From NCBI GenBank assembly GCA_016926475.1, contig JAFGON010000055.1:1-26346 (forward strand): a stretch of DNA of 26,346 nucleotides, read 5' to 3'. A program made the position numbers and the translations under genes. The notes beneath the pieces were generated by a model that saw only the letters and a list, made by a program, of their open reading frames with translations, ran no database searches and was not told the DNA's origin. Below, piece after piece: positions 18,099-21,221 of this stretch; position 1 is the stretch's first letter, and the number at the start of each line of letters is the position of its first letter. The DNA comes from a candidate division WOR-3 bacterium. GTDB lineage: Bacteria; SDB-A.

Positions 18099-18176
<78 letters not shown>

Positions 18177-18216: not shown

Positions 18217-20064
18217 ATGAGGGCATACGAATTATTAAAAAAGGACGCATATACAGTACTCTGCGGGGATGAGCTCGTCGACCTCGACGAACAAATAAAA
18301 GATGCATGTGAAGCGCTTCCCTTCTCGGACGAAAGGTGCAGAAATGTATTTTGGCATTCTTCCGCTCACCTTCTCGCCCAGGCTGTTTTAAGGCTATTCC
18401 CGGGTACAAAACTCGGAGTCGGTCCGGCTGTAGAAGAAGGTTTTTATTATGATTTTATACCTCCAAAACCTTTCACACCCGAAGACCTGACCCAAATTGA
18501 AGACGAAATGAAAAAAATAATCTTAGAGGATTTGCCCATAAAAAAGACCGTTGTTTCAAAAGACGACATGGTCGAACTTCTGAAAAAACAAGGGCAGGAT
18601 TTGAAAATTGAACTCGCCCAGGAATTTGATGAACCAATCAGCTACTACTCTCAGGGGGAATTCTTCGACATGTGCAGGGGTCCCCACTTGAGGTCTACAG
18701 GTGAAGTAGGTCATGTAAAAGTTTTAAGCGTTGCCGCCGCCTATTGGAAAGGCGACGAAAAGAATCCATCGATGCAGAGAGTTTACGCAATCGCTTTTCC
18801 CTCAAAAGAACTCCTCGAGGAACACCTGGAAAAATTGGAGCAGGCAAAACTCAGAGACCACAGAAAAATCGGCAAAAACATGAGTCTCTTCAGCATTGAA
18901 GAAGAAGGCGGCCAAGGGCTGATATACTGGCATGAAGCTGGGAGTATAATCAGAGAAGAAGTCGAAAACCTCTGGATCAACGAGCACAAAAGGCGCGGAT
19001 ACGGTTTCGTCAGAACCCCTCATATCGCCAGAGCAGACCTCTGGAGGCAATCCGGTCATTTGGATTATTACAGCGAGAATATGTTTTTCCTCGACGACAA
19101 AGAATTTGTTTTGAAACCGATGAACTGTCCTGAACACATACTGATTTTTAAAAGGAACAAAAAAAGTTACAGAGAACTGCCTTATAAAATTGCCGAACTC
19201 GGAACAGTCTACAGAAAAGAGAGATCGGGAGTGTTGCATGGAATGCTGCGGGTCAGAGGATTCACTCAGGACGACGCTCATATCTTCTGCACCGCGGATC
19301 AAATCGAACAGGAGATAACAGGTGTTCTTGACCTTGTTCTCGGCTGGATCGAGAGATTCCGATACGATAAGTACTCCATAGAGCTCAGCCTCCGGGACCC
19401 TCTAAATGCCGGTAAGTACGCCGGTGATGAAGAAAGTTGGGAAAGGGCTGAATCTTCCTTGAAATCCGCCCTTGAAAACAACAATCTTCAATACAAAGAA
19501 ATGCCGGGGGAAGCAGTTTTTTACGGACCGAAAATTGACTTCAAACTTTACGACGCCATTGGCCGATCATGGCAAGGCTCGACCATACAACTTGACTTTA
19601 ACCTCCCCAAGAGGTTCGACCTCGTCTACATTGATAAAGACGGACAAGACAAAACCGTAATCATGATTCACAGGGCAATTATGGGATCTCTAGAAAGATT
19701 TGTCGGCGGCCTGATCGAACACTATTCAGGCAGATTTCCTTTCTGGCTTGCTCCAGAGCAAGTCAGAATAATCCCCATAACCCAGGAACAACAAGAATCA
19801 GCTCAAAATCTTGCCAAATCTCTTCGAGAAAATGGAATCAGATGCTCTGTGGACGAAAGAAACGAAAAGTTAGGCCACAAAATCAGAGACGCGGAGACCG
19901 CCCATGTTTCTTTGATGGCTGTTTTAGGAAGAAAAGAAATGGAGTTAAGCCGGATTTCCATTAGGGAATCGCAGGGAAAAGAAATGGGCTTGATGTCTTA
20001 CGAATCCTTGATAGAATTATGTATTAACCGTATAGACGAAGGAAGAAAGAAACTCAACAGATAA
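18217..20064 (+). CDS. thrS: Threonyl-tRNA synthetase with truncated TGS domain
   Basis: Class II synthetase charging tRNA-Thr. The 615 residues include the editing domain with HSSAH (first His at 47) and the catalytic core, where the zinc ligands are Cys304 (KPMNCPEH), His355 (DDAHIFC) and His485 (MIHRAIMGS). The C-terminal anticodon-binding domain is present (KLGHKIRDAE region). Cys304 and His355 keep the 51-residue spacing of E. coli Cys334/His385. The N-terminus is about 30 residues short: only the second half of the TGS domain (GDELVDLDEQI onward) is present. AAGGAG is 6 nt before the ATG, and no in-frame upstream start exists before the tRNA. It heads thrS-infC-rpmI-rplT. Confidence 0.97.
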   Translation: MRAYELLKKDAYTVLCGDELVDLDEQIKDACEALPFSDERCRNVFWHSSAHLLAQAVLRLFPGTKLGVGPAVEEGFYYDFIPPKPFTPEDLTQIEDEMKKIILEDLPIKKTVVSKDDMVELLKKQGQDLKIELAQEFDEPISYYSQGEFFDMCRGPHLRSTGEVGHVKVLSVAAAYWKGDEKNPSMQRVYAIAFPSKELLEEHLEKLEQAKLRDHRKIGKNMSLFSIEEEGGQGLIYWHEAGSIIREEVENLWINEHKRRGYGFVRTPHIARADLWRQSGHLDYYSENMFFLDDKEFVLKPMNCPEHILIFKRNKKSYRELPYKIAELGTVYRKERSGVLHGMLRVRGFTQDDAHIFCTADQIEQEITGVLDLVLGWIERFRYDKYSIELSLRDPLNAGKYAGDEESWERAESSLKSALENNNLQYKEMPGEAVFYGPKIDFKLYDAIGRSWQGSTIQLDFNLPKRFDLVYIDKDGQDKTVIMIHRAIMGSLERFVGGLIEHYSGRFPFWLAPEQVRIIPITQEQQESAQNLAKSLRENGIRCSVDERNEKLGHKIRDAETAHVSLMAVLGRKEMELSRISIRESQGKEMGLMSYESLIELCINRIDEGRKKLNR

Positions 20065-20080
20065 GGAGGTCATTATCACG
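20063..20080 (+). promoter_or_regulatory. infC ribosome site with non-canonical start codon
   Basis: AAGGAGGT (20063-20070) overlaps the thrS stop and is followed in the infC frame by ATT (20072), ATC (20075) and ACG (20078). Between the in-frame stop at 20033 and the conserved IF-3 start there is no ATG, GTG or TTG. ATC at 20075 has the best spacing, matching that of thrS. IF-3 rejects such starts in other bacteria, giving autoregulation. Confidence 0.8.
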
Positions 20081-20671
20081 TTTTCTCCCAAAGGTTATAA
20101 AAACGTTCAGGTCAATCATTCAATTAAAAGCCCAAGCGTCAGGGTAGTAGATGAAAACGGGAAATACATAGGAATATTAGACGTGAAGACAGCAGTGAAT
20201 ATGGCAGCCGAACGAGGTTACGATTTAGTTATGATTTCGGAATCTTCAACTCCCCCTGTGTGCAAGATAATCGACTTCGGTAAATTCAAATTCGACGAGA
20301 AAAAAAAGTTAAAGGAAGCTCAACACAAACAAACAACTATCAAGGTCAAAGAACTCCGAATGAAACCTGGAATAGACGAGCACGATTACAGAGTTAAACT
20401 TGAGAAAGCTAAATCTTTTTTAACTCAGGGAAAAGACGGAAAAAGCAGTAATTCACCTCTGTCCAACAAAAAAAACAAAGTAAAATTTATCGTCCGTTTG
20501 TACGGAAGGGAAATGGCTCACTCTGAACGGGGAATGGCTGTTTTAAACAAATTCATTGAAGACCTAGAGGATTTGGGTACCGTCGAACAAAATCCAATTC
20601 AGGAAGGCCGTTTCATCAGCATGGTAATAGCGCCTAAAAAAATGGAGGGCAAACAAAATGCCAAAAATTAA
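20075..20671 (+). CDS. infC: Translation initiation factor IF-3, non-AUG start, with an inserted loop
   Basis: IF-3 binds the 30S subunit, prevents subunit joining and checks start codons. Read from ATC at 20075 it has 198 residues. The N-domain carries SVRVVDENGKYIG and the signature TPPVCKIIDFGKFKF; the C-domain has KELRMKPGIDEHDY and YGREMAHSERG. The first standard start codon (GTG, 20183) lies inside the N-domain and would delete about 36 conserved residues, so the real start must be non-canonical (ATC, or ATT 20072 / ACG 20078). A Ser/Asn/Lys-rich insertion of about 15 residues (about 119-134, around KSSNSPLSNKK) sits before the KVKFIVRLYGRE strand. It overlaps rpmI by 14 nt. Confidence 0.93.
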   Translation: MTFSPKGYKNVQVNHSIKSPSVRVVDENGKYIGILDVKTAVNMAAERGYDLVMISESSTPPVCKIIDFGKFKFDEKKKLKEAQHKQTTIKVKELRMKPGIDEHDYRVKLEKAKSFLTQGKDGKSSNSPLSNKKNKVKFIVRLYGREMAHSERGMAVLNKFIEDLEDLGTVEQNPIQEGRFISMVIAPKKMEGKQNAKN

Positions 20672-20855
20672 AACAAACAAATCAGCAGCAAAAAGATTTA
20701 AAAAGACAAAGAACGGTAAAATTAAGAGATGGCAGTCTTTCACGGGTCACTTGAAAACAGGCAAATCAGCGGGAAGAAGGAGAAAATTGAGATCTTCAAC
20801 TCTCGTCTCCAAAGCCAATCTCGAAAAGACTAAAATGCTAATACCTTACGCTTGA
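20658..20855 (+). CDS. rpmI: 50S ribosomal protein L35
   Basis: A 65-residue, very basic protein with the family start MPKIKTNKSAAKRFKKT, the GHLKTGKSAGRRRKLR segment and the C-terminal motif ending in MLIPYA. It is a structural protein of the large subunit. GGAGG (20644-20648) lies inside the infC end, 9 nt before the ATG; the start overlaps infC by 14 nt. The order infC-rpmI-rplT is the classical one, in which L20 usually represses the downstream genes; I did not identify the L20 binding structure here. Confidence 0.97.
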   Translation: MPKIKTNKSAAKRFKKTKNGKIKRWQSFTGHLKTGKSAGRRRKLRSSTLVSKANLEKTKMLIPYA

Positions 20856-20864
20856 GGAGGAAAA

Positions 20865-21221
20865 ATGCCGCGAGCCACAAATAACCCCGCGTCAAAGGCG
20901 AGACATAAAAAAATTCTCGAACTCGCCAAAGGTTTTTACGGAGTAAGACATTCAAGGTTCAAATCTGCCAACCAAGCTGTTATGAGAGCAGGCATCAATG
21001 CTTACTCTGACAGAAAAAAGAAAAAAAGAGATTTCAGAAGGCTCTGGATTACGAGAATTTCAGCTTCCTGCCAAAACCAGGGTCTTTCTTACTCTAAATT
21101 CATGTTCGGGTTGAGCAAAGCCGGAATTCAAATAAACCGTAAAATGATTGCCGAAATCGCGGCTAAAGACAATGAAGCTTTCAGCGATCTGGTCAAAATC
21201 GCGCAAAAATCTCTTTCTTGA
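20865..21221 (+). CDS. rplT: 50S ribosomal protein L20
   Basis: 118 residues, the usual length, starting MPRATNNPASKARHKKIL and containing GFYGVRHSRFKSANQAVMRAG and the RRLWITRISASCQNQGLSYSKFM signature. It is a 23S rRNA-binding assembly protein of the large subunit and a translational repressor of this operon in E. coli and Bacillus. GAGGAGG is 4 nt before the ATG, 9 nt after the rpmI stop. Its last 50 nt overlap the start of the next gene. Confidence 0.97.
   Translation: MPRATNNPASKARHKKILELAKGFYGVRHSRFKSANQAVMRAGINAYSDRKKKKRDFRRLWITRISASCQNQGLSYSKFMFGLSKAGIQINRKMIAEIAAKDNEAFSDLVKIAQKSLS

Follow-up and report, generated by a model that had tools for sequence, protein, structure and literature searches.

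The thrS-infC junction and its start codons

The window analyzed here is a 26,346-nt stretch of DNA, contig 55 of a draft metagenome-type genome from a candidate division WOR-3 bacterium (G000; 2.15 Mb, 106 contigs). It was compared with three further genomes of the phylum, two from the same genus (G001, accession JAFGIG010000064.1, deposited as candidate division WOR-3, and G002) and one from the same family (G003). The region of interest carries the genes thrS-infC-rpmI-rplT in their normal arrangement, with the following features.

18099-18173, + strand: tRNA gene just upstream of thrS (Rfam)
18217-20064, + strand: thrS, threonyl-tRNA synthetase (ORF list); ATG start, TAA stop overlapping the infC ribosome site
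20063-20070, + strand: Shine-Dalgarno (SD) sequence of infC, AAGGAGGT, read from the sequence; kept as TAAGGAGGT in G001 and as TAAGGAGGG in G003
20075-20077, + strand: ATC, most likely the infC initiation codon; 5 nt after GGAGG, with ATT equally spaced in G001 and G003
20075-20671, + strand: infC, initiation factor IF-3, 198 aa (TIGR00168, 193.8 bits; IF3_N, 94.9 bits)
20658-20855, + strand: rpmI (L35), standard ATG; assigned from its position and a reading of the sequence rather than a family search
20865-21221, + strand: rplT (L20) (ORF list), standard ATG; orthologues in G001 (88%) and G003 (65%)

The tRNA gene was the single match in an Rfam scan of the window. Read from the ATC, the infC product is IF-3, with a score far above the cut-off of 60 bits set for the NCBIfam equivalog. 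The infC frame is open from a TAG at 20033-20035 to its own stop at 20671. Codon-by-codon inspection of this frame bore out the initial annotation, according to which infC has no ATG, GTG, or TTG between that TAG and a GTG at 20183, itself located inside the conserved domain. Indeed, the Pfam IF3_N domain starts at 20111, and a start at GTG 20183 would remove ∼24 domain residues. The perfect ribosome site and the three codons said to follow it were likewise found at the expected coordinates: the thrS TAA (20062-20064) is overlapped by AAGGAGGT, and ATT 20072, ATC 20075, and ACG 20078 come after it as the sole plausible starts between the stop codon and the domain. By our own estimate, which assumes 5% start codons, a run of 26 codons without a standard start arises by chance in about one in four cases. 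The start-less stretch is significant because a conserved gene must start within it, because TAAGGAGGT is rare (one occurrence in the window, 0.17 expected), and because both relatives that hold infC are alike in this respect.

Choice of the initiation codon

The starts were compared by anchoring on the SD sequence; a MAFFT alignment misplaced the start of G003. In G001 and G003, the two phylum relatives holding the gene, thrS is directly 5′ of infC (77% and 63% identity to the window's thrS, respectively), and infC likewise lacks a standard start. The anchored reading is GGAGG-TCATT-ATC-ACG in the window, GGAGG-TAGCT-ATT-ACG in G001, and GGAGG-GAATA-ATT-AAA in G003. The letters of the spacer thus differ among the three genomes, and its 5-nt length and the ATH codon that follows are constant. 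Before standard starts in the window, the SD-to-start spacing ranges from 4 to 10 nt (5 nt for thrS, 4 nt for rplT). Because spacing and ATH are kept in three genomes across a changed spacer, ATC 20075 is the best start, and this comparison of sequences strongly supports initiation at AUC. The AUC start already regarded as likely therefore gains from its 5-nt distance to the SD and from ATT at the identical distance in both relatives. Conservation of the rare codon, proposed as a check, applies to the ATH position and not to the codon itself, which is ATT in G001 and G003; the C of ATC is specific to the window's genome among the phylum genomes compared, of which two relatives hold infC. G002 has neither infC nor a close match to thrS or rplT, although it is rated 100% complete. 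The whole thrS-infC-rplT segment is probably missing from this assembly, which would make G002 uninformative.

The two codons flanking ATC 20075 are both very unlikely starts, and to the same degree. ACG 20078 lies at a good spacing, 8 nt from GGAGG, and recurs at the same place in G001, but AAA occupies that place in G003, the mismatch would fall on the second codon base, and in the 130-genome sample described below most genes have ATH in register with the SD. Initiation at ATT 20072 would use the same codon as Escherichia coli infC, but only 2 nt separate it from GGAGG, and GCT stands there in G001, whose ATT occupies the position of ATC. Even less probable is a sequencing or assembly error that conceals an ATG, as the initial annotation had considered. 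The window does come from a draft metagenome-type assembly of 106 contigs, but G001 and G003 share the start-less arrangement with an equally spaced ATT, so that independent errors in three genomes would be required; dozens of unrelated families also have no standard start, and rplT in the same sampled loci has standard starts, which indicates that non-standard starts are no general assembly fault. Least credible of all is a shortened IF3 from GTG 20183. This is the earliest standard codon in the frame, but besides lying ∼24 residues into the IF3_N domain, it has no strong SD upstream, and the protein sequence that precedes it is conserved in G001 (84% over residues 1 to 197) and in G003.

A frameshift or a thrS-infC fusion was also considered and rejected, since thrS has its own TAA in a different frame, overlapped by the SD; no conserved slip site was seen. 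A search for 16S rRNA in the window's genome, aimed at its anti-SD, found none. Predicted RNA structure over the infC start was no more stable than that of shuffled sequences (z, 0.53).

infC starts across bacterial families

A domain-wide sample comprised 130 infC genes, nearly every one from a different family. Between the in-frame stop and the start of the conserved domain, 63 of them have no ATG, GTG, or TTG. All but 4 of these 63, which have neither kind of start, show an ATH codon in register with the SD (ATA in 24, ATT in 18, and ATC in 17). In 42 more genes, the SD favors ATT, ATC, or ATA over standard codons that are present, whereas only 6 clearly favor a standard codon and 19 are undecided. 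An in-frame ATT, ATC, or ATA thus occurs at SD distance in about 100 of the 130 genes. Classification was automatic, by an anchor motif and the longest SD match, and individual entries may be wrong; a frame control nonetheless argues for sound totals, since ATH was found 4 to 10 nt after the SD in the infC frame of 93 of the 117 genes with a clear SD, as against 11 and 5 genes for the two remaining frames. The rplT starts in the sampled loci were ATG in 14 and GTG in 1 of the 15 loci matched by a motif that presumes Pro at position 2 and leaves the first codon free.

Judged from these sequences, ATT, ATC, and ATA starts are the norm for infC across bacterial families and not a specialty of this lineage. 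In practice, a gene caller that accepts only ATG, GTG, and TTG will shorten infC or overlook it in about half of the families sampled. In a survey of non-AUG starts in fully assembled genomes, which probably did not include the candidate phylum, infC is reportedly prominent. The Myxococcus xanthus IF3 gene, dsg, is also reported to start at AUC. Genes that prefer non-AUG starts have been surveyed (arXiv:2008.10758, as cited in PMC9845219). The idea that the window offers something notably new through its different codon finds no support, given the generality of these codons in the sample and an infC start that is ATT in E. coli and already ATC in Streptomyces (PMC5472188). Similarly, the picture of an enterobacterial trait extended to one distant lineage proved too narrow for what is the general state of infC in the sample.

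Predicted initiation, IF3 features, and known systems

We consider it highly probable that infC starts at AUC 20075-20077 by means of the CAU initiator tRNA and a strong SD, with an IF3 feedback inferred by homology. The AUC would be read by the ordinary CAU-anticodon initiator with a mismatch at the third position, and the very strong SD would make such initiation possible. An initiator-type anticodon stem and loop, GGGCTCATAACCC, is present in all four phylum genomes, and its CAU anticodon is normal; with the initiator tRNA loop standard, a recoded initiator is unneeded. IF3 would reject codons like AUC, and high levels of the factor would lower its own translation, as happens with AUU in E. 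coli. By analogy with E. coli, negative feedback of IF3 on infC is likely. In that bacterium, IF3 destabilizes initiation complexes formed at any codon but AUG, GUG, or UUG (as cited in PMC5472188), and the AUU-started infC is less translated when IF3 is plentiful, an effect abolished by changing AUU to AUG (Butler et al. 1987; Sacerdot et al. 1996, as cited in PMC5472188). IF3 autoregulation is also stated in PMC5472188 itself.

Among the E. coli residues considered for codon discrimination, the window IF3 keeps Lys110 and Arg133 and has Lys for Arg99 and Tyr for Arg131. The residues at Tyr70 and Tyr75 of E. coli are Phe in the window IF3. A 14-residue insertion in the C domain (KDGKSSNSPLSNKK in the window; 20432-20480) is found in all three IF3 proteins of the family and in none of the 47 other IF3 proteins aligned; it follows the C-domain helix and precedes the strand containing Arg129 to Arg133 of E. 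coli. The position of Arg131 (about 20498-20506, in RLYGRE), occupied by Tyr in the window, is Phe or Val in the two relatives, and Arg is found there in 44 of the 50 IF3 proteins sampled. Substitutions at Arg131 are among those reported to relax start selection in E. coli. If this residue matters for codon discrimination, the feedback could be weaker in the WOR-3 lineage. It is an unlikely, if conceivable, reading that the IF3 of this phylum, with the insertion and without Arg131, judges start codons differently and that the AUC/AUU feedback on infC has been retuned. The insertion together with the loss of Arg131 is the sole feature of the locus that may merit a further look.

With this locus, a phylum about which little is known joins the bacteria retaining a rare infC start, as would be expected of an IF3 feedback that is very old and general. 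One close parallel is E. coli infC, which starts at AUU and is autocontrolled by IF3 (Butler et al. 1986, 1987; Sacerdot et al. 1996, as cited in PMC5472188 and PMC9845219), which is alike in the gene, the thrS-infC neighborhood, the AUH start, and a ribosome site that overlaps the end of thrS; in RefSeq, the annotation of E. coli infC begins at the ATT that lies three bases beyond the stop codon of thrS. The two differ in the codon, AUU there versus AUC in the window, and the feedback proposed for the window is modeled on E. coli. Streptomyces infC (PMC5472188) is the same gene with the same ATC start in an unrelated lineage.
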